Below are positions 1-33,081 of a DNA stretch of 64,000 nucleotides, piece by piece. The DNA is taken from contig BBSY01000005.1 of assembly GCA_000974665.1 (NCBI GenBank), positions 1-64,000 on the forward strand. The letters are read 5' to 3'. Position 1 is the stretch's first letter; each line of letters begins with the position of its first letter. The position numbers were made by a program, and so were the translations under genes. The notes under the pieces are model-generated. The model was not told the origin of the DNA. It ran no database searches and was given only the letters and a program-made list of their open reading frames with translations. Source of the DNA: an alpha proteobacterium U9-1i (GTDB lineage Bacteria; Pseudomonadota; Alphaproteobacteria; Caulobacterales; Aquidulcibacteraceae).

Positions 1-1391
1 AGCGGGCCCTGCCCCCTCAGTCAGCTTCGCCGACAGCTCCCCCGCAAGCGGGGGAGCAAAGACGATCTTACGCCGATTGCGCGGTGTTGGTGCGGGCGGC
101 GTGGCAGATGCGGGCGTTTGAAGAACGCTTCCTGATGCTGCGCATCCCCTACAAGGTGATCGGCGGGCCGCGCTTCTTCGAACGCGCGGAAGTGCGCGAC
201 GCGCATGCGTATCTGCGGCTGATCCGTTCGGAGGACGACGATCTTGCGTTCGAGCGCGTGATCAACAATCCGAAACGCGGGTTTGGCGATGGCTCGCTGG
301 CGAAGCTGCATGCGCACGCCGCAAAGGCGCCGGTGCGGTTTGTGACCGATAACGGGCCGCTGTTCGACCAGGACACGGGCGAAGTGGTGACGACGCAGGA
401 AGAAGCGCCGGGCGGCGCGACGCGGTTCCGTTCGCTCGTCGGCGCGGCGCGCGAGATTGTGCTGACGGACGAGTTGCCGCTGAAGGCGCGCACGGCTCTG
501 CGCTCGTTCCTCAGTGACCTCGATCGCTGGCGCGCGCAATCCTTGACGCTTGGGCACATCGAGCTGGCGGAAATCGTTCTCGACGAAAGCGGCTACACGG
601 AAATGCTGCGCAACGACAAATCTCCGCAGGCGCAGACGCGACTCGAAAACTTGAAAGAATTGGTTCAATCGATGGGCCAATTCGACACGTTGGAAGCGTA
701 TCTCGAACACGTGGCGCTTGTGCTCGACATCGAAGCGGAGAGCGACGCGGAGAACGTGCATCTCTCGACGCTGCACGCGGCGAAGGGCCTCGAGTGGCCG
801 CTGGTGTTTCTGCCCGGCTGGGAAGAAACCGTGTTTCCCTCCCAGCGCGCGATCGACGAAAGCGGCGAGAAGGGTTTGGAGGAAGAGCGCCGGCTTGCGT
901 ATGTGGGCATCACCCGCGCCCGCGAAAGCGCGCGCATTTCGTTTGCGGCGAACCGCCAGATTTATGGGCGCTGGCAGACGGTGCTGCCATCGCGATTTGT
1001 GGATGAGCTGCCGGCGAAGAACGTCGATGCGGTGAGCGAGACGGGCTATACCATGCAGCCTGGCGCGGTGCGTGAGGCGGCGGGCGCGCGGTTTGATGCC
1101 TATGCGCCGGGCGCGGGCTTCAACAGCGCGTATCAATCACCCGGTTGGCGTCGCGCACAGGAAAACGCTGGTCGCGTGTCGAAGCCGCCGATGATCGAGG
1201 GCGAAGCGCGCTTGGTGGCGCGCAGCGGCGGCGACGACAGCAGCTACAAACGCGGCGACCGCATCTTCCATCAGAAGTTTGGCTACGGAAAAATTCGCTC
1301 GGTTGAGGGCAATAAGCTCACGGTGGATTTCGACAAGGCTGGCGAGAAGCGCGTGATCGATAGCTTCGTCGTGCCAGCGAGCGCGGCTTAG
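1..1391 (+). CDS. uvrD: UvrD/PcrA-type DNA helicase, 5' part outside window
   Basis: C-terminal 462 residues of an SF1A 3'-5' DNA helicase acting in nucleotide excision and mismatch repair. The frame is open from base 3 with no stop, so the gene starts upstream of the window. Visible motifs: motif IV region AVLVRAAWQMRAFEERF (from base 81), motif V LSTLHAAKGLEW (about 762-798), motif VI EERRLAYVGITRAR (about 880-924), and a C-terminal Tudor-like tail GDRIFHQKFGYGKIRSV typical of PcrA/UvrD (about 1251-1300). The residues just before motif IV are encoded by a palindromic repeat (11..60) read in frame. The first internal start codon is a GTG at 84, but it lies inside the conserved domain and is not the true start. 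The DUF2971 gene begins 4 bases after the stop. Confidence 0.93.
   Translation, partial: RALPPQSASPTAPPQAGEQRRSYADCAVLVRAAWQMRAFEERFLMLRIPYKVIGGPRFFERAEVRDAHAYLRLIRSEDDDLAFERVINNPKRGFGDGSLAKLHAHAAKAPVRFVTDNGPLFDQDTGEVVTTQEEAPGGATRFRSLVGAAREIVLTDELPLKARTALRSFLSDLDRWRAQSLTLGHIELAEIVLDESGYTEMLRNDKSPQAQTRLENLKELVQSMGQFDTLEAYLEHVALVLDIEAESDAENVHLSTLHAAKGLEWPLVFLPGWEETVFPSQRAIDESGEKGLEEERRLAYVGITRARESARISFAANRQIYGRWQTVLPSRFVDELPAKNVDAVSETGYTMQPGAVREAAGARFDAYAPGAGFNSAYQSPGWRRAQENAGRVSKPPMIEGEARLVARSGGDDSSYKRGDRIFHQKFGYGKIRSVEGNKLTVDFDKAGEKRVIDSFVVPASAA
11..60. repeat. Half of palindromic repeat family A, in frame inside uvrD
   Basis: The core CTCCCCCG-CAAG-CGGGGGAG lies at 37..56, preceded by a CCCCCTCAGTC...GACAG arm. 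It matches the half element at 30549..30595 almost base for base outside the loops. The uvrD frame reads through it as PPQSASPTAPPQAGEQ with no stop. The partner half of the usual inverted pair, if present, would lie just outside the window. Confidence 0.8.
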
Positions 1392-19503: not shown

Positions 19504-19925
19504 CCCCGCGCGCGCACGACGTTTTCGATGACGCCAAACGCTCCGCGGTGATGCGCGCGGTGAAAAGCCGAGACACGGCGCCGGAGCGCGCTGTGCGCGA
19601 CGCGGCTTGCGCGGCGGGCTATGCGCGACGCTACCGTTTGAGTGGCGGAGGACTGCCCGGTAAACCGGATTTGGTGTTTGGCGCGATGCACAAGGCTGTG
19701 TTCGTGCATGGCTGCTTTTGGCACGGCCACACGTGCAAACGCGGCGCGCGTAAGCCGAAAGACAATGCGCGCTACTGGAGCGAGAAAATCGCCCGCAACC
19801 GTGCACGCGATGCGCGGGTGCTGCGTGAGCTGGGCGATGCGGGCTGGAGCGCGCTGGTGATTTGGGAGTGCGAGACGCGGGACAATGCGGCGCTCAGGGA
19901 TCGGCTTTCGCGCTTTCTCGGCTGA
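19500..19925 (+). CDS. vsr: Very short patch repair endonuclease
   Basis: 141 residues, close to E. coli Vsr in length and motifs: RSAVMRAVKSRDTAPE (N-terminal), GLPGKPDLVF with the catalytic Asp, KAVFVHGCFWHGHTC (metal and zinc ligands), YWSEKIARNRARD, and WSALVIWECE. It nicks T:G mismatches produced by deamination of the methylcytosine made by the overlapping methylase, starting their repair back to C:G. The start is a GTG overlapping the methylase stop, implying coupled translation. Confidence 0.95.
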   Translation: MTPRAHDVFDDAKRSAVMRAVKSRDTAPERAVRDAACAAGYARRYRLSGGGLPGKPDLVFGAMHKAVFVHGCFWHGHTCKRGARKPKDNARYWSEKIARNRARDARVLRELGDAGWSALVIWECETRDNAALRDRLSRFLG

Positions 19926-26533: not shown

Positions 26534-28741
26534 TCACGCGGCTTGCTTCGCCTTCGCGCCGAAGCGCTCGTAGAAGCTCTCGTTCTTCGCGGCCATTTCG
26601 CGGAGCAATTTGCCAGGGCGGAAACGTTCGCCATAGGCATCCGCCAAGCGGTCGGCCTCTTTCACGAATGCGGCCGTGCCCCAGAAGAGATCGATGTAGC
26701 TGACGCAACCGCCGGTGTACGGGGCAAAGCCCCAAGCGAGGATCGAACCGACATCGGCGTCGCGTGGATCGGTGATCACGCCTTCTTCGAAGCAGCGCGC
26801 AACTTCCACGCATTGGCGGAACAGGAAGCGCTTGGTCAGCTCCAGCTTCATCTCAGGCGGGCATTCTTTGACCTTGATGTCGATCTTCTCTGACAGCTCC
26901 GGCCAAATACGCGCAGGTTTGCCGTCCTGGCCGTACTCGTAGAAGCCCTTCGCGGCCTTGCGGCCGACGCGGCCTTTTTCCTCGACGATCCAGGTCAGCA
27001 ATTTGCCGCGTGGGTCTTTCGAGTAATCGACACCTGACGCTTCGGCCGTCGCCTTGCTGACTTTGAGCGCGGTGTCGAGGCCGACAGAGTCCGATACTTC
27101 AAGCGGGCCCATCGGCATGCCGCATTGGCGGCCAACGTTTTCGATGATCGCCGGCGCGATGCCGTCGTGCAGCATTTCCATGCCTTCGACGGTGTAGGTG
27201 CCGAAGCAGCGCGAGGTATAGAAGCCGCGGCTATCGTTCACGGTGATCGGCGTCTTTCGGATTTTGATCACGTAGTCGACGGCCTTCGCGAGCGTCTCCT
27301 GGCTGGTTTCCTTGCCCATGATGATCTCAACGAGACCCATGCGCTCGACCGGCGAGAAGAAGTGGATGCCGATGAAATTCTTTGGACGCACGCTGGCTTC
27401 GGCGAGACCTGTGATCGGCAGCGTTGACGTGTTGGAGCCGAACACGGCGTTTTCGCCAAGCACCGCTTCCGCTTTCTTGGTGATATCGGCTTTCAAAGCG
27501 GGGTTCTCGAACACTGCTTCAATAACGAGATCGCAGCCTTTGAGATCGTTGTAATCGGTCGATGGCTTGATCAGGGCGAGCAATGAATCGCCTTTTTCCT
27601 TGGTGGATTTGCCGCGGCTCACATCCTTTTCGACGATCTTGCGCGAGTAATCCTTGCCCTTGTCGGCGTTTTCCATCGACACGTCGATGAGCACGGTTTC
27701 AACACCGGCCTTTGCTTGCACGTAAGCGATACCAGCGCCCATCAGACCCGCGCCGATGACGCCCACCTTCTTGATCTCCGTCGGCGGGAAACCTTCGGGA
27801 CGATTGGCGCCCTTGCCCAGCGCCTGCATCGACACGAACAGCGAACGCACCATGCCTTTGGCTTGCGGCGTGTTCGCGGTTTTGACGAAGTAGCGGCTCT
27901 CGATACGGAGCGCGGCGTCGATCGGCACCTGCATGCCTTCATAGATGCAGGAGAGAATGTTGCGCTGCGCGGGATAGTTCAGGTTCGTTTGCTTCGACAC
28001 CATCGCGTTGCCGCCGACAGCAGCCATGCCGCCGCCCGGCGTGTACGGGCCGTCCTTCACCCGGTAGCCTTTCACGTCCCACGGGGCGACGTGGTTCGGC
28101 TTGCCCTTCAGCCACGCTTTCGCCGCTTCGACGGTTTTGCCGGGCTCGACAACGTCATTGATGAAGCCAAGCGACTTGGCTTCTTGCGGGCTCTTGTCGC
28201 CGCCTTGAAGGATGATCATCGCCGCGTTTTGCACGCCGATCAGGCGCGGCAGACGCTGTGTGCCGCCGGCGCCGGGCAAAAGACCGACCTTCGCTTCGGG
28301 AAGGCCGAGCTTGATTTTCGGATTGTCCGCGGCGACGCGATAATGGCCGGCGAGCGCAAGCTCCAAGCCGCCGCCAAGCGCCAAGCCTTCGAGCGCGAAC
28401 GCCACCGGTTTGCCGCAGGTTTCGAGCGCGCGATAGACCTTGTTGAGCGCGAACGCCTGCTCGAATTGCGCCTTGAGCTTTTCTTCTTCCGATTTTGGCG
28501 CGGCCTTATCGCTCGCGCCACGTTGGTTCATTTCGCCAAGATCGGCGCCGGCGCAAAAGCCCGAGGCTTTGCCAGACGTGAACACCGCGCCCTTGATCGC
28601 GGCGTCGCTTTTGATGCGATCAACGACCTCGTAGAGATCCTTGATCACGCCGCCGGTGATCGTGTTCATGGATCGGCCCGGCACGTCGAACGTGATGAGC
28701 GCGATGCCGTCGCTGTCGACGTCGATCTTGAAGTTTTCCAT
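26534..28741 (-). CDS. fadJ: 3-hydroxyacyl-CoA dehydrogenase / enoyl-CoA hydratase fusion
   Basis: 735 residues, the FadB/FadJ alpha subunit of the beta-oxidation complex. The crotonase half (residues 1-190) has SGKASGFCAGADLGEM and ALEGLALGGGLELALAGHY with both catalytic Glu regions (GLPEAKVGLLPGAGGTQRLP). The dehydrogenase half has KKVGVIGAGLMGAGIAYVQ (NAD), GSNTSTLPIT and NFIGIHFFSPVERMGLVEI. It hydrates and oxidises enoyl-CoA to 3-ketoacyl-CoA for the thiolase encoded upstream. Its Shine-Dalgarno GAGGAA (12-7 bases before the ATG) lies in the last codons of the DUF559 gene, so the two are probably coupled. It is the last gene of the operon. Confidence 0.93.
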   Translation of the reverse strand: MENFKIDVDSDGIALITFDVPGRSMNTITGGVIKDLYEVVDRIKSDAAIKGAVFTSGKASGFCAGADLGEMNQRGASDKAAPKSEEEKLKAQFEQAFALNKVYRALETCGKPVAFALEGLALGGGLELALAGHYRVAADNPKIKLGLPEAKVGLLPGAGGTQRLPRLIGVQNAAMIILQGGDKSPQEAKSLGFINDVVEPGKTVEAAKAWLKGKPNHVAPWDVKGYRVKDGPYTPGGGMAAVGGNAMVSKQTNLNYPAQRNILSCIYEGMQVPIDAALRIESRYFVKTANTPQAKGMVRSLFVSMQALGKGANRPEGFPPTEIKKVGVIGAGLMGAGIAYVQAKAGVETVLIDVSMENADKGKDYSRKIVEKDVSRGKSTKEKGDSLLALIKPSTDYNDLKGCDLVIEAVFENPALKADITKKAEAVLGENAVFGSNTSTLPITGLAEASVRPKNFIGIHFFSPVERMGLVEIIMGKETSQETLAKAVDYVIKIRKTPITVNDSRGFYTSRCFGTYTVEGMEMLHDGIAPAIIENVGRQCGMPMGPLEVSDSVGLDTALKVSKATAEASGVDYSKDPRGKLLTWIVEEKGRVGRKAAKGFYEYGQDGKPARIWPELSEKIDIKVKECPPEMKLELTKRFLFRQCVEVARCFEEGVITDPRDADVGSILAWGFAPYTGGCVSYIDLFWGTAAFVKEADRLADAYGERFRPGKLLREMAAKNESFYERFGAKAKQAA

Positions 28742-28744
28742 ACC

Positions 28745-29257
28745 CTATTCCTCGCAGTGCAGCTTTCCTCCCCCGTTTACGGGGGAGGTGTCCCGGACAC
28801 AGTCCGGGACGGAGGGGGCGCAGCGCGCGCTGCGCAAAATCGTTTCAAGCGTTCCGTACAGGTTCTTGTAGACGTCATTGTTCGACACGCGAACGATCCG
28901 CCAGCCTTCGCGGCTCAAAACCTGATCTCGAATTTGGTCGTGCTCCAGCTCTTCCTTCGTTGCGTGCGTAGCGCCGTCCACCTCAACAACCAAACGGGCT
29001 TCGATGCATACAAAGTCGGCGACATACGCCTTGATGGGGTGCTGTCGTCTGAATTTTAGGCCGTCGAGCTGGCGACGACTAAGTCTCGACCATAGGATCG
29101 TCTCGGCACCGGTCAGCCGCGCCCGAAGCTGCTTTGCCCACGGTCGGGATTCGCGTTCTTGCAGACGGATGCGCGGCGGCGCCCCCTTCGTCCCCGCGTT
29201 CGCGGGGACACTTCCCCGTTTCACGGGGGAAGAAAACGGAAAGCCACCGCGCGTCAT
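28745..29257 (-). CDS. DUF559 endonuclease-like protein, ends encoded by repeats
   Basis: 170 residues. Core DUF559 domain (about residues 35-145): LRARLTGAETILWSRLSRRQ, LKFRRQHPIKAYVADFV, CIEARLVVEVDGATH, REGWRIVRVSNNDV, a PD-(D/E)XK fold related to Vsr with Asp and Glu-x-Asp residues in place. The first 25 residues (FSSPVKRGSVPANAGTKGAP) and the last 20 (PSVPDCVRDTSPVNGGGK) are translations of palindromic repeats. The ATG overlaps the thiolase stop (TAATG), and the stop is 3 bases before the fadJ ATG, so the gene is embedded between two cotranscribed genes without breaking coupling. DNA nicking or cleavage is inferred from fold only. Confidence 0.85.
   Translation of the reverse strand: MTRGGFPFSSPVKRGSVPANAGTKGAPPRIRLQERESRPWAKQLRARLTGAETILWSRLSRRQLDGLKFRRQHPIKAYVADFVCIEARLVVEVDGATHATKEELEHDQIRDQVLSREGWRIVRVSNNDVYKNLYGTLETILRSARCAPSVPDCVRDTSPVNGGGKLHCEE
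28767..28818. repeat. Palindromic repeat family A, left copy flanking DUF559
   Basis: Core CCTCCCCC-GTTTAC-GGGGGAGG at 28767..28788, followed by TGTCCCGGACA...TCCGGGACGGAGGGGG. It is inverted relative to the copy at 29181..29232, with which it shares length (52 bases) and layout, and encodes the C-terminus of the DUF559 protein. Confidence 0.85.
29181..29232. repeat. Palindromic repeat family A, right copy flanking DUF559
   Basis: Begins GCCCCCTTCGTCCCCGCG, contains a CCCCGCG-ttCGCGGGG hairpin, and ends with CTTCCCCGTTTCACGGGGGA plus AG. It is the inverted partner of 28767..28818 and encodes the N-terminus of the DUF559 protein. The whole unit 28767..29232 is 466 bases. Confidence 0.8.
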
Positions 29258-30471
29258 TAGTTCACGCGTTCGATCACGGTGGCGGTGCCCATGCCGGCGC
29301 CGACGCAGAGCGTGACCAGTGCGCGCTCCTTGTTCGAGCGTTCGAGTTCATCGACCATCGTGCCGAGGATCATCGCGCCCGTGGCGCCGAGTGGGTGGCC
29401 CATGGCGATCGAACCGCCATTGACGTTGACCTTCTCCATGTCGAGATCGAACGCCTGCACCCAGCGCAGCACCACGGCGGCAAAGGCTTCGTTCAGCTCC
29501 CAAAGATCAATGTCCTTGGTTGTCATGCCGAGGTTCTTCAGGAGTTTGGCGGTGACAAATTCAGGCCCAGTGAGCATGATCGCCGGTTCGGAGCCAATCG
29601 AAGCGCCGCCCAGAATGCGCGCGCGCGGCTTCAAGCCCAACGCTTCGCCCATTTCCTTGGTGCCGATCAGCACGCCGGCCGAGCCATCGACGATGCCCGA
29701 TGAATTGCCGGCATGGTGGACGTGGTTGACCTTCTCCACTTCCGGATAACGCTGCTGAATCACAGCATCGAAGCCGGGCATCACTTCGCCTTGCATCTTG
29801 AAGCTGGGCTCAAGCGCGCCAAGCGATTGCAACGTCGTGTCGGGGCGCATGTGCTCGTCGTGATCGAGCAAGGTAACGCCGAGCTGATCCTTTACGGGCA
29901 CGATCGACTTCTTGAAGCGGCCTTCCTTCCACGCTTTGGCGGCGCGGGTTTGGCTTTGCACGGCGTAGGCGTCCACATCCGTGCGCGAGAAGCCGTACTT
30001 CGTGGCGATAAGGTCAGCGCCAACGCCCTGCGGGGTGAAATAGCTTTTCATGGCGATGCTTGGATCGGCCGCCCACGCGCTGCCGCCCGAACCCATCGGC
30101 ACGCGGCTCATGGCTTCAACGCCGCCGCCGATCGTCATTTTCGCTTCGCCGGATTTCACCTTGGCGGCGGCGATGTTCACGGCTTCCAAACCCGACGCGC
30201 AAAAGCGATCGACTTGAACGCCGGCGACGGATTGCGCGTAATCGGCGTTCAACACGGCGACGCGGGCGATGTCAGCGCCCTGCTCGCCGTGCGGCGAGAC
30301 GACGCCCAGATAAACGTCGTCAATCGCCGAGGTGTCGAGGTTGTTGCGGTCACGCAGCGCCTGCAGCATCTGCGTGGCGAGCGCGAGCGCGGTTTGCTCG
30401 TGCAGCGTGCCGGTATTCTTGCCTTTGCCGCGCGGCGTGCGGACGGCGTCGAAAACGTATGCGTCAGTCAT
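29257..30471 (-). CDS. Acetyl-CoA C-acetyltransferase (beta-oxidation thiolase)
   Basis: 404 residues counted from the ATG at 30471 (MTDAYVFDAVRTPRGK), with AAAGGAG 8 bases upstream. Catalytic Cys in QVDRFCASGLEAVNIAA, His in VNGGSIAMGHPLGATGAMIL, Cys in ALVTLCVGAGMGTATVIE. Cleaves 3-ketoacyl-CoA with CoA to give acetyl-CoA and works with the fadJ product encoded downstream. In most relatives the fadA-like and fadJ-like genes are adjacent; here a repeat-flanked DUF559 gene stands between them. Its TAA stop overlaps the DUF559 ATG. Confidence 0.92.
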   Translation of the reverse strand: MTDAYVFDAVRTPRGKGKNTGTLHEQTALALATQMLQALRDRNNLDTSAIDDVYLGVVSPHGEQGADIARVAVLNADYAQSVAGVQVDRFCASGLEAVNIAAAKVKSGEAKMTIGGGVEAMSRVPMGSGGSAWAADPSIAMKSYFTPQGVGADLIATKYGFSRTDVDAYAVQSQTRAAKAWKEGRFKKSIVPVKDQLGVTLLDHDEHMRPDTTLQSLGALEPSFKMQGEVMPGFDAVIQQRYPEVEKVNHVHHAGNSSGIVDGSAGVLIGTKEMGEALGLKPRARILGGASIGSEPAIMLTGPEFVTAKLLKNLGMTTKDIDLWELNEAFAAVVLRWVQAFDLDMEKVNVNGGSIAMGHPLGATGAMILGTMVDELERSNKERALVTLCVGAGMGTATVIERVN

Positions 30472-30490
30472 CGTCGTACTCCTTTGCCTC

Positions 30491-30595
30491 CTCCCCCGCC
30501 TGCGGGGGAGGTGTCGCCGAAGGCGACGGAGGGGGCGCGTAGCCATTGCCCCCTCAGTCTCGCTTCGCTCGACAGCTCCCCCGTAAACGGGGGAG
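30491..30595. repeat. Inverted pair of palindromic repeat family A
   Basis: The left half starts CTCCCCCGCCTGCGGGGGAG, then GTGTCGCCGAAGGCGACGGA and GGGGG. The right half, inverted, ends CTCCCCCGTAAACGGGGGAG at 30576..30595. The pair occupies the 220-base gap between osmC and the thiolase gene and starts 20 bases before the thiolase ATG. Confidence 0.85.
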
Positions 30596-30691
30596 CAATC
30601 ACCCTGGGTGGAACCGGAGTCGTTCCTGGCGCAAAGCAGCGCCTACTCCGCTGACCGCTGCGCTCGGGCCGAGCACAGCGCGGCAAACGTG

Positions 30692-31150
30692 CTACGTCGC
30701 GACCGTCACTTCACCATTGAACGAATTGGCGATGAAACAGGCGTCGTGAGATTTGTGATGCAACTCGGCGAGTTCGTCCGTGCTCGGGCGCTTGTCGCCG
30801 GAAAATTCGATGGCGGGCTTCAAGGTCACTTTCGTCATCGCGATCTTGCCGGCGGCGTTCTTGCCCATGACCCCTTCGGGATTGTCGATGTAGCTATCGA
30901 CGATGAAGCCGCCGCGGCGCGCGAAATCGAGAAACCACAGCATGTGGCAATTCGAGAGCGAGGCGACGAGCAATTCTTCCGGATCCGCTGCGTCGAGGCG
31001 CGAGAGCGGGACCTTCACAACGTGCGGCGACGATGAACCAGGAATCGACACGCCGCCGTCGAACGAAATTTCGTGCGCGCGCGAATAGAGATTGTCGCTA
31101 AACGGCTGCTCGCCGCGCATCCAAGTGATGGTGGCGGTGTAAGTGGCCAT
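30692..31150 (-). CDS. OsmC family peroxidase-like protein
   Basis: 152 residues. OsmC/Ohr fold with both redox Cys: LLVASLSNCHMLWFLDFARR (Cys near residue 69) and KSHDACFIANSFNGEV (Cys near residue 139). Family members reduce organic or fatty acid hydroperoxides, which would suit a fatty-acid operon. The Shine-Dalgarno GGGGGAGGA, 6 bases before the ATG, is the edge of the family A palindrome at 31156..31177. It lies between the acyl-CoA dehydrogenase and thiolase genes. Confidence 0.88.
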   Translation of the reverse strand: MATYTATITWMRGEQPFSDNLYSRAHEISFDGGVSIPGSSSPHVVKVPLSRLDAADPEELLVASLSNCHMLWFLDFARRGGFIVDSYIDNPEGVMGKNAAGKIAMTKVTLKPAIEFSGDKRPSTDELAELHHKSHDACFIANSFNGEVTVAT

Positions 31151-31155
31151 CTAAT

Positions 31156-31268
31156 CCTCCCCCGCTTGCGGGGGAGGTGTCGCGCGCGCAGCGAGCGACG
31201 GAGGGGGGAGTAAGCTGCCCCCCCTCGGTTTCGCTTCGCTCAACCACTTCCCCCGCACGCGGGGGAAG
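31156..31268. repeat. Inverted pair of palindromic repeat family A
   Basis: The left half has core CCTCCCCCGC-TT-GCGGGGGAGG (31156..31177), then GTGTCGCGCGCGCAGCGAGC and GACGGAGGGGGG. The inverted right half ends CTTCCCCCGC-AC-GCGGGGGAAG (31247..31268). It lies between the acyl-CoA dehydrogenase gene (upstream) and osmC, and supplies the osmC ribosome site. Confidence 0.85.
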
Positions 31269-31287
31269 ATATAACCCGCCAACGCCA

Positions 31288-33081
31288 TCAGAACGCCTCC
31301 GCCGCGAGCGCCATCACCGGCTCGGCGCCGGTTTTGAGTTTGGCGAGATGTGCGCCGGCGTCTGGGGTGACGCGGGCGATGAAGTAGCGGCCGGTGGCGA
31401 TTTTCGTATCGTAGAACGGATCGGCGCCGCCGCCGTTCTTCTTCGCCGCGAAGGCAGCCTTGGCCTGCAGCGCCCACATATAGGTGAGCGCCGTGACGCC
31501 GAAGAGGTTCAAGAAATCGTGGCTCGCGGCGCCGGCATTGTCGAAATTCGCCATGCCGTTTTGCATGAGCCACATCGCCCCTTCCTGCAGCTGCGCTTTG
31601 GTGGCGGCGAGGCTGTCGAGGAACGGCTTCAGATCGGCGTCGGCTTCGTTGGCGTGAATGAAATCGTCGATCTCATTCAAGAACGCAAAAATCGCACGAC
31701 CGCCATTGGCGCCGAGCTTGCGGCCGACGAGGTCGAGAGCCTGGATGCCGTTGGCGCCTTCGTAGATCATGGCGATGCGCGCATCGCGCACGAACTGGCT
31801 CATGCCCTGCTCTTCGATATAGCCGTGGCCGCCGAAGATTTGCTGGCAATTGGTGGCGTTCGCGTAGCCTTTGTCGGTGAGGTAGCTTTTGATCACGGGC
31901 GTGAGCAACGCCATGTAATCGCCGGCCTTCTCGCGCACTTTCTCATCGGGCGAGACGTGCAACAGATCGCCTTGCAATGCCGTCCAGAACGCAAACGCGC
32001 GTGCGCCTTCGTTGAAGCTCTTGGCGTCGAGCAGCATGCGGCGGATATCGGGGTGGACGATGATTGGATCGGCGGGGCCGTTCGGATTTTTGGCGCCGGT
32101 GAGCGAGCGGCCTTGGAAGCGATCCTTGGCGTAAGCGACGCCGTTTTGGTAGGCGACTTCGCTTTGGGAAAGGCCCTGCACGCCAACGCCCAAGCGCGCG
32201 ACATTCATCATCGTGAACATGGCCGCGAGGCCCTTGTTCTCAACGCCGCAGAGATAGCCCACCGCGTCGTCGTAATTCAGCACGCACGTCGAATTGCCGT
32301 GGATGCCCATCTTTTCTTCGATCTTGCCGCAGACGACGCCGTTGCGCTTGCCGGGCGTTCCATCGGCGTTGAGCACGAATTTCGGCACGATAAAGAGCGA
32401 AATCCCCTTGGTGCCCTGCGGCGCGCCTTCGATGCGCGCGATCACCAGATGGATGATGTTGGCCGCCAGATCGTGCTCGCCAGCGGAGATGAAAATTTTC
32501 TGCCCGGTGATGCGATAGCTGCCATCGGCTTGCGGGATGGCTTTGGTGCGCAGCATGCCGAGATCGGTGCCGCAATGCGGCTCCGTCAGATTCATCGTAC
32601 CGGTCCACTCGCCGGTGACGAGCTTGGGCAGATAGGTTTGCTTTTGCTCGTCGCTGCCGTGCTGGTGGATCGCTTCGTAAGCGCCGTGGCTGAGCCCCGG
32701 ATACATGGTGAAGGCCATGTTGGCGCTGGAGCACATTTCGCTCCACGCCATCGCCACCACGTGCGGCATGCCTTGGCCGCCATAGTTCGGATCGCTGGAG
32801 AGCGCCGGCCAGCCCGCTTCAACGAATTGCTTGTAGGCGTCCTTGAAGCCGGGCGGGGTTTTCACAGAGCCATCGTCGCTGCGCACGCAGCCGTGCTCGT
32901 CGCCGATCTTGTTCAGCGGCGCCAACACGCCTTCGCAGAATTTCGCACCCTCTTCGAGCACCTGCTCGATGAGATCCATCGGCGCATCTGCAAAGCTCGG
33001 CAGGTTCGAATAACGCTCGATGTCGAGAACGTCCTTCAGCAGGAAGCGATACTCGCGAAGCGGTGCGGAATAAGATGGCAT
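31288..33081 (-). CDS. Acyl-CoA dehydrogenase
   Basis: 597 residues, the long acyl-CoA dehydrogenase type with an extra C-terminal domain (YLLKDVLD-like N-terminus EYRFLLKDVLDIERYSNLPS). FAD and substrate motifs: GTMNLTEPHCGTDLGML, YRITGQKIFISAGEHDLA, NVARLGVGVQGLSQSEVAYQ, and CQQIFGGHGYIEEQGMSQFV. First, FAD-linked oxidation step of fatty acyl-CoA in the cytoplasm. Electrons go to electron-transfer flavoprotein, which is not encoded here. It is the first enzyme gene of the operon, 82 bases after the MerR gene. Confidence 0.92.
   Translation of the reverse strand: MPSYSAPLREYRFLLKDVLDIERYSNLPSFADAPMDLIEQVLEEGAKFCEGVLAPLNKIGDEHGCVRSDDGSVKTPPGFKDAYKQFVEAGWPALSSDPNYGGQGMPHVVAMAWSEMCSSANMAFTMYPGLSHGAYEAIHQHGSDEQKQTYLPKLVTGEWTGTMNLTEPHCGTDLGMLRTKAIPQADGSYRITGQKIFISAGEHDLAANIIHLVIARIEGAPQGTKGISLFIVPKFVLNADGTPGKRNGVVCGKIEEKMGIHGNSTCVLNYDDAVGYLCGVENKGLAAMFTMMNVARLGVGVQGLSQSEVAYQNGVAYAKDRFQGRSLTGAKNPNGPADPIIVHPDIRRMLLDAKSFNEGARAFAFWTALQGDLLHVSPDEKVREKAGDYMALLTPVIKSYLTDKGYANATNCQQIFGGHGYIEEQGMSQFVRDARIAMIYEGANGIQALDLVGRKLGANGGRAIFAFLNEIDDFIHANEADADLKPFLDSLAATKAQLQEGAMWLMQNGMANFDNAGAASHDFLNLFGVTALTYMWALQAKAAFAAKKNGGGADPFYDTKIATGRYFIARVTPDAGAHLAKLKTGAEPVMALAAEAF

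Follow-up and report, generated by a model that had tools for sequence, protein, structure and literature searches.

The DUF559 unit at the fadA-fadJ junction

The window, that is, the whole stretch of 64,000 nucleotides that was analysed, carries three neighbouring genes on its minus strand: a thiolase gene (fadA, 29257..30546 in the list of open reading frames), a DUF559 gene of 170 codons (28745..29257) and a fadJ-type gene for a 3-hydroxyacyl-CoA dehydrogenase/enoyl-CoA hydratase (26534..28741). The two outer genes were assigned from the ORF list and Pfam, and the middle one by its match to profile PF04480. An earlier note on this DNA had placed the DUF559 gene in a 466-base unit between fadA and fadJ, with its start overlapping the thiolase stop (TAATG) and the fadJ Shine-Dalgarno sequence in its last codons. 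All three statements held: the profile match is strong (E 2.1e-33), the overlap is present, and a Shine-Dalgarno-like GAGGAA was found before the fadJ start. The complete unit, delimited by repeat alignment and junction comparison, covers 466 bp (28767..29232).

Each end of the unit is formed by a 52-nt repeat consisting of a hairpin (pyrimidine arm, loop, purine arm), a second hairpin and a third arm. In the left repeat (28767..28818, plus strand; sequence alignment and arm analysis), the pyrimidine arm lies at 28767-28774, the purine arm beyond the loop at 28781-28788, the second hairpin at 28789-28810 and the third arm at 28811-28818. The right repeat (29181..29232, minus strand) is inverted, its third arm GAAGGGGG occupying 29182-29189 on the minus strand, and both third arms face inward. 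The purine arm GGGGGAGG has its mirror in the third arm GGAGGGGG, and GGGGAAG likewise in GAAGGGG; the spacing between purine and third arm is 22 nt on the left and 20-21 nt on the right. The orientation and length previously reported for the two copies were correct, but the copies are imperfect (38/53 alignment columns identical), and the palindrome, though real, had been described without its second hairpin and mirror third arm. The local alignment score of the pair is 70, compared with a maximum of 47 among 2000 Markov-shuffled pairs. The DUF559 frame crosses both repeats, and residues 9-26 and 147-164 of its 170 are translated from them; the former attribution of the first 25 and last 20 residues was thus approximately right. 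Across 190 loci, the frame enters the downstream repeat in 140, and such repeat-encoded tails of DUF559 frames are an annotation issue.

The window repeats possess the arms of a class II triplex (pyrimidine, purine and antiparallel mirror third arm) under the A-A-T, T-A-T and G-G-C rules, which the accessible part of PMC4666352 gives as the R-motif rules. The BoxC/PIT/intrastrand triplex motifs (TMs) described there have the same pyrimidine, purine and mirror third arms of class II. Judged by their sequence, the window repeats are a variant of this class, and not of the RAYT-type REPs with which the earlier note had compared them. E. coli TMs have a 3-nt link in that description, whereas the window repeats have the 22-nt second hairpin in its place; the consensus link is present at other loci. 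Neither window terminal repeat contains a GTAG tag, and a search of 28500-31500 against Rfam returned no match up to E 0.1.

The earlier note had also mentioned empty pairs elsewhere, and two gene-less inverted pairs of triplex-type repeats indeed adjoin the unit. The motif finder located one at 30487..30597 (30487-30535 on the plus and 30550-30597 on the minus strand) and the other at 31155..31268 (31155-31206 plus, 31219-31268 minus); the ends of the latter are of the CCTCCCCC and CTTCCCCC types, as in the DUF559 unit. In the 64 kb, the finder gave 8 matches; three sequences from a first-order Markov model gave 0, 1 and 2. A solitary triplex-type repeat of the TGCTCCCC/CTGAGGGG type lies at the window edge (13-58, minus strand), and a Vsr-family match (PF03852, E 1e-26) occurs at 19518-19742 (plus strand), about 9 kb from the DUF559 unit.

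The window protein scores 114.9 bits against PF04480 (cut-off 20.6), and Vsr (PF03852) is absent among its Pfam matches up to E 0.001; matches from PADLOC and NCBIfam were weak or below cut-off. Its structure model (pLDDT 81) matched 3hrl, a DUF559-like protein from Neisseria (Foldseek E 2.5e-7, TM 0.90 by target); next among solved folds came the homing endonuclease I-Bth0305I (3r3p, 1.1e-4) and Vsr (1cw0, 3.6e-3). All 76 proteins compared share D81, E92, G95, H98 and R123, and E52 and D107 are each found in at least 90% of them; the window protein has all seven. It can thus be classed, from the model, as a predicted nuclease of the PD-(D/E)XK fold and Vsr/EDxHD type, in agreement with the relation to Vsr suggested earlier, and E52, D81, H98 and D107 are probably the EDxHD residues (family name as in the accessible part of PMC6083498). 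Within the family, YcjD had been assigned to the PD-(D/E)XK superfamily by 2005 (PMC1189080, accessible part), and VsrA, a Caulobacter DUF559 protein, is described in the accessible part of PMC12907096 as a predicted mismatch-repair endonuclease and as the cause of an SOS response in cells without a cytosine methylase.

Inverted repeats around DUF559 genes in bacteria

We counted a DUF559 locus as two-sided when the triplex-motif finder gave matches on both sides, on opposite strands and within 400 nt, and used shifted windows as controls. In the genus, 106 places matched, 89 were fetched and 86 were tested, three having been lost to contig ends. Two-sided inverted repeats were found at 68 of the 86 loci and in 0 of 172 shifted windows. 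The earlier note had proposed searching other DUF559 genes for the same flanking palindrome and had named a lack of association as the outcome that would speak against it; the inverted palindromes are there, but they are of many types and not one shared sequence. In the wider Pseudomonadota (class/phylum set, 55 tested of 58 best-scoring loci), 31/55 loci were two-sided compared with 1/110 controls, and in named genomes (78 testable loci, best 80 matches kept) 63/78 compared with 2/444. At least one side carried a motif at 84/86 genus loci (controls 17/172), 54/55 best-scoring class/phylum loci (8/110) and 77/78 named loci from the best 80 (50/444), while 18/86 genus and 24/55 best-scoring wider loci were without a two-sided inverted pair. 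A triplex-blind measure, an inverted-repeat score of 36 or more, was reached at 66/86 genus loci (0/172), 31/55 best-scoring wider loci (1/110) and 39/78 named loci from the best 80 (1/444). At L309 (Legionella anisa), a very long inverted repeat (score 250) is not recognized by the triplex-motif finder.

By this comparison, the association also extends across phyla. Twenty named loci, again among the best 80 matches, are titled outside Pseudomonadota or without phylum: 8 former Deltaproteobacteria, one without phylum and 11 others, among them Chloroflexi, Nitrospirae, Dadabacteria, Planctomycetota, Melainabacteria, Spirochaetes, FCPU426, Bacteroidetes and Stahlbacteria. All 20 are two-sided by the finder and 8/20 by the triplex-blind measure. 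Similarly, for ten cyanobacterial and Deinococcus loci chosen from 47 plasmid records with a match, 7/10 were two-sided by the finder and 6/10 had an inverted-repeat score of 36 or more; on three Deinococcus plasmids, the DUF559 gene lies at differing points of one hpa gene cluster. On four cyanobacterial plasmids (L235, L236, L239, L242), it adjoins DUF499/DUF1156 genes or a BREX-type pglX, as if units often settled in defence-like operons. The window-protein query matched 3 of 50,697 phage records; by this search, therefore, phages are not the main route of spread. Vsr genes had two-sided repeats in 0 of 27 loci tested (30 fetched) and a one-sided repeat in 1. In the window's own genome, nine of ten DUF559 genes have adjoining palindromic repeats, mostly of differing types as judged by eye.

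The third arm was examined at 141 ends whose hairpins had been found through Watson-Crick pairing alone. It was closer to the mirror of the purine arm than to its direct repeat at 82 ends and the reverse at 9, with 50 ties (sign test 7e-16, the ends being not all independent). With the register set by G alone, A lay opposite A in 125 and opposite T in 79 of 216 instances, and C opposite T in 19/32. The facing of C to T is a rule that belongs to triplex chemistry. This third-arm code emerges from comparison of the ends, and the sequences of the window and related repeats fit three-stranded DNA; for the E. coli motif, a triplex has been shown in vitro (PMC4666352, accessible part). A G-quadruplex would be possible in place of the triplex for types with 4xGGG, and leaves the mirror-placed A and T of other types unexplained. 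In the nearest pair, the third arms point inward at 49/68 genus loci and at 54/63 two-sided named loci (best 80 kept).

The palindromes are of many types, with a tendency for a given DUF559 to have its own, a matching that comparison across sites brings out. Taking one unit per site among 61 genus units with an inverted-repeat score of 40 or more (30 sites), repeat similarity tracked DUF559 similarity (rho 0.36, a value that 1 permutation in 3000 reached). At 7/30 sites, where about 1 was expected, the most similar repeat belonged to the nearest protein. A Mantel test on the seven units of the window's own genome alone was not significant (434/2000). The T1 repeat type occurs, among the 86 loci, only at L015, L019 and L022, which form one DUF559 clade (protein similarity 0.68-0.96 internally and at most 0.39 to others), and the genomes of these loci have 31, 5 and 4 T1 copies compared with a mean of 0.7 in 27 others; the cognate clade is missing from G003 and G004, which nevertheless have 6 and 7 T1 repeats. 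When close inverted T1 pairs were inspected by eye, 20 of 21 combined one A end (GAGCTGTCA..TGACTGAGTGGG) with one B end (GAGGTGG..CGGAGTGGG). Two of the three T1 DUF559 units have the same B/A ends and the third has B ends only. A pairing of A and B types is described for E. coli in the accessible part of PMC4666352. The picture is less clear for other types: protein similarity was 0.502 within compared with 0.325 between for the T2 type, and the corresponding values for the TA type, 0.367 and 0.317, show hardly any clustering of proteins.

Repeat numbers also follow the gene. Three repeat types were counted in 30 genus genomes, in all of which the backward pattern gave 0; the counts correlated with the number of DUF559 genes (rho 0.57, p 0.001) better than with that of Y1_Tnp genes (rho 0.33, p 0.08). 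Copy numbers were 0, 0 and 1 in the three genomes that have no DUF559, one of them 65% complete. We further surveyed 398 Pseudomonadota genomes for the E. coli BoxC pattern, taking E 1e-15 or better as strong DUF559. The pattern was present in 65/108 genomes with strong DUF559 compared with 17/290 others (37 of which had weak matches), and read backward it gave 2 and 1 matches in two genomes listed. Stratification by 14 varying families gave a common odds ratio of 28.8 (p 9e-15, 203 genomes), and of 26.8 with 12 families, two varying ones being left out. There are exceptions: strong DUF559 is missing in 8 of the 49 genomes with five or more BoxC copies. Two genomes without strong DUF559, G344 (87% complete) and G264, hold 121 and 36 copies, respectively.

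Presence, absence and copies of the units

As a check, the earlier note had suggested looking for an empty fadA-fadJ junction in relatives, and it had counted a repeat-free DUF559 gene here in all relatives as refuting; neither this outcome nor the lack of association named above was observed. The junction was readable in 27 of 30 genus genomes. The unit is present in 4, window included, and 10 short junctions (68-121 nt as printed) are without it; one further genome (L045) has both repeats, of the same type, with a DUF559 remnant. Another genome (L044), treated below, has one end of the unit, and the remaining 11 have other palindromes at 4 short and 2 longer junctions and other small ORFs in 5. 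At L044 (G021), one terminal repeat and the first DUF559 codons are fused to an unrelated ORF, an arrangement that one-sided replacement of the unit might produce; we take this ORF to resemble DJ-1/PfpI.

The polymorphism seen by comparing this site recurs elsewhere. L020 shares its flanks with L008 and L034 but neither its protein (similarity 0.23-0.25) nor its repeat (0.14-0.15), so a single site can hold unrelated units in different genomes. Genome G399 carries two copies of one unit (568 and 564 bp), 5.7 kb apart and 86% identical over 595 columns. For the first of these sites, 30 loci were read from 81 genomes searched: DUF559 is absent in all 28 other genomes with both flanks read, 20 of which hold 10-69 nt only, and none of the 28 has the same pair without the gene. 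Between the two units lie two palindromic repeats of about 300 bp, 80% alike (L130, 7313-7623 and 8745-9040).

DUF559 units therefore show two features used to define insertion sequences, terminal inverted repeats and presence or absence at a site. Direct repeats of at least 7 nt flanked 4/64 units (two of the four being one locus counted twice) compared with 1.2% in mismatched pairs, a weak excess on which we base no claim of target-site duplication; examples are the 8 nt GCGGCACC at a G399 unit and the 7 nt TAGCCCT at L020. From the comparison of sites we infer that the units are mobile. The autonomous palindrome-plus-nuclease element proposed in the earlier note is supported to this extent, whereas the part in which the enzyme itself moves the unit goes a step further and is taken up below.

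Candidate mechanism, alternatives and known systems

The most probable explanation, in our judgment, is that these are widespread, previously undescribed mobile elements of about 0.5 kb, in which a DUF559 nuclease lies between inverted triplex-capable repeats and handles its own ends, and of which BoxC-like pairs are gene-less derivatives. That the protein recognizes the ends is suggested by the matched types and by the conserved layout, in which the hairpins lie outermost, the third arms point inward and the nuclease gene sits in the middle. In each terminal repeat, the third arm would fold back onto the hairpin to give a triplex of the purine motif. The DUF559 nuclease would most likely recognize and nick terminal structures of its own type, either in single-stranded DNA, as at a replication fork, or after extrusion. 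Nicking by the Vsr-like enzyme would concern one strand, and both ends may fold on the lagging-strand template, as proposed for IS200/IS605 and REP systems. The unit, or a gene-less pair with matching ends, could then be copied or moved to other intergenic sites, and BoxC/PIT/triplex motifs, with many more types, would be gene-less derivatives of DUF559 units. In this scheme DUF559 presumably does the moving, with nicking as the chemistry and the triplex as what is recognized, and to date it is the strongest candidate for the missing partner gene behind the spread of BoxC-like repeats. More tentatively, and with rather less confidence than doubt, DUF559 proteins may constitute a novel transposase class, in which Vsr-like nucleases of a single domain read triplex ends and spread themselves and thousands of BoxC-like repeats across phyla, E. 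coli YcjD being a familiar, partly decayed representative.

These data could also arise if a DUF559 homing endonuclease gene had entered the spacer of pre-existing pairs that spread otherwise, with the repeats as its target. The folds nearest to the model after 3hrl would suit such an enzyme, and the gene invariably separates two repeats that at other sites form a gene-less pair. The pre-existing pair, however, was met in none of the genomes read at the G399 site, most of which hold a few tens of nucleotides, and the only gene-less allele of the same type at fadA-fadJ (L045) retains a DUF559 remnant. Moreover, repeat type tracks DUF559 similarity across different sites, genus genomes without DUF559 are nearly free of repeats, and the comparisons already suggest that repeat-bearing units inserted where no pair ever existed; we consider homing unlikely. 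Still less likely, in our view, DUF559 is a host or defence gene riding in pairs that spread by another transposase, such as a RAYT, or by replication slippage. Y1_Tnp genes do occur in 16/30 genus genomes, and the neighbours of DUF559 on cyanobacterial plasmids would suit a defence gene. Yet 12 of the 14 genus genomes without a Y1_Tnp match carry repeats, up to 30 copies of three types. In addition, Y1_Tnp (RAYT-like) loci of the genus (L334-L343) had two-sided triplex repeats in 0/6 tested of 10 and inverted repeats of another kind in 5/6, so that two separate palindrome systems coexist in the genus. Repeat counts, as noted, track DUF559 better than Y1_Tnp, and a passenger gene would have no need of a matching repeat type.

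It is also conceivable, at a very low probability, that DUF559 serves as a caretaker, a nuclease for DNA structures or mismatches that acts on triplexes or hairpins or repairs T:G mismatches, and is retained next to such repeats on account of the danger they pose to replication. The prediction made for VsrA points in this direction, as do the collapse of E. coli BoxC pairs to one hairpin (L327, L328, L330) and the instability linked with E. coli triplex motifs (PMC4666352, accessible part). Such an enzyme, however, acts in trans and need not sit inside a pair, still less with its frame running into the repeat, and two copies of one unit in one genome, as in G399, would not be needed. An element that handles its own ends thus remains our preferred reading.

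Several known systems resemble these elements in part. I-Bth0305I and Vsr have the fold of the DUF559 model and its E-D-H-D residues; homing genes, however, are located in introns or between phage genes and are not known to have terminal repeats, and Vsr genes, at the 27 loci tested, were free of two-sided repeats. MITEs are like the gene-less inverted pairs (about 110-130 nt), which carry the ends of DUF559 units. Known MITEs derive from DDE-type IS elements, whereas no DDE transposase was seen with DUF559 units, as far as we looked. The REP/RAYT systems (REPtron, TnpA-REP) follow the same plan, with a small gene between inverted palindromes, many gene-less pairs and matching of enzyme and repeat type, but their enzyme is a Y1 (HUH) tyrosine transposase and not a PD-(D/E)XK nuclease, and they have a GTAG tag where DUF559 units have three-armed repeats and no GTAG. 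CGTC-tagged REPs, which are palindromic, mostly alphaproteobacterial and mostly in inverted pairs, are said to be without a dedicated transposase (PMC3733652); they differ from DUF559 repeats in stem sequences and tag. BoxC/PIT TMs, like DUF559 units, are often inverted pairs of two end types. They have been on record since the 1990s and occur in more than 260 genomes, and according to the accessible part of PMC4666352, their spread is an open question; that 2015 study looked for a mobility gene near the repeats and found none, and no partner gene is named in this part. A text search for "DUF559" in PMC4666352 (accessible part) and PMC3733652 gave no hit, and our literature search, which covered few subscription papers and preprints, returned neither a link between DUF559 and the repeats nor a paper with both ycjD and BoxC or one that combines "repetitive extragenic palindromic" with "very short patch repair".

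If DUF559 moves repeats, a nuclease family joins the enzymes that move DNA; to our knowledge, the DUF559 family is not known as a transposase. The three-stranded DNA structure would then gain a biological reader, and many annotations reading "endonuclease domain-containing protein" or "DUF559" would become mobile-element genes. A partner nuclease with matching repeat types also makes the spread of the repeats testable in laboratory E. coli, whose DUF559 gene is ycjD.

In E. coli, ycjD lies between sapF and fabI. At L128 and L129, its stop codon falls inside a BoxC, and a second, inverted BoxC lies about 200 nt away; in the MG1655 record, the first of these is partly deleted. DUF559 relatives in enteric-like genomes lie at other places (L107, L108, L114), and a BoxC-type repeat marks the 3' end of each gene; their neighbours are presumably hemW/yggN-like genes at L107 and L114 and an efeB-like gene at L108. 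The second ycjD BoxC has the sequence of TM no. 9 in the table of PMC4666352 (accessible part). We also considered ycjD-free E. coli strains as a base-exact empty site, and in the three strains read an efflux operon occupies the place. Two E. coli BoxC-pair sites showed collapse to one hairpin, loss of the whole pair and, in one strain, a pair in opposite orientation, with flanks too divergent for exact junctions. Between hrpB and mrcB, the BoxC pair is present, collapsed, absent or in opposite orientation across strains; in strain JNEC-KY204, its orientation is opposite to that in K-12 (L331 compared with L326).
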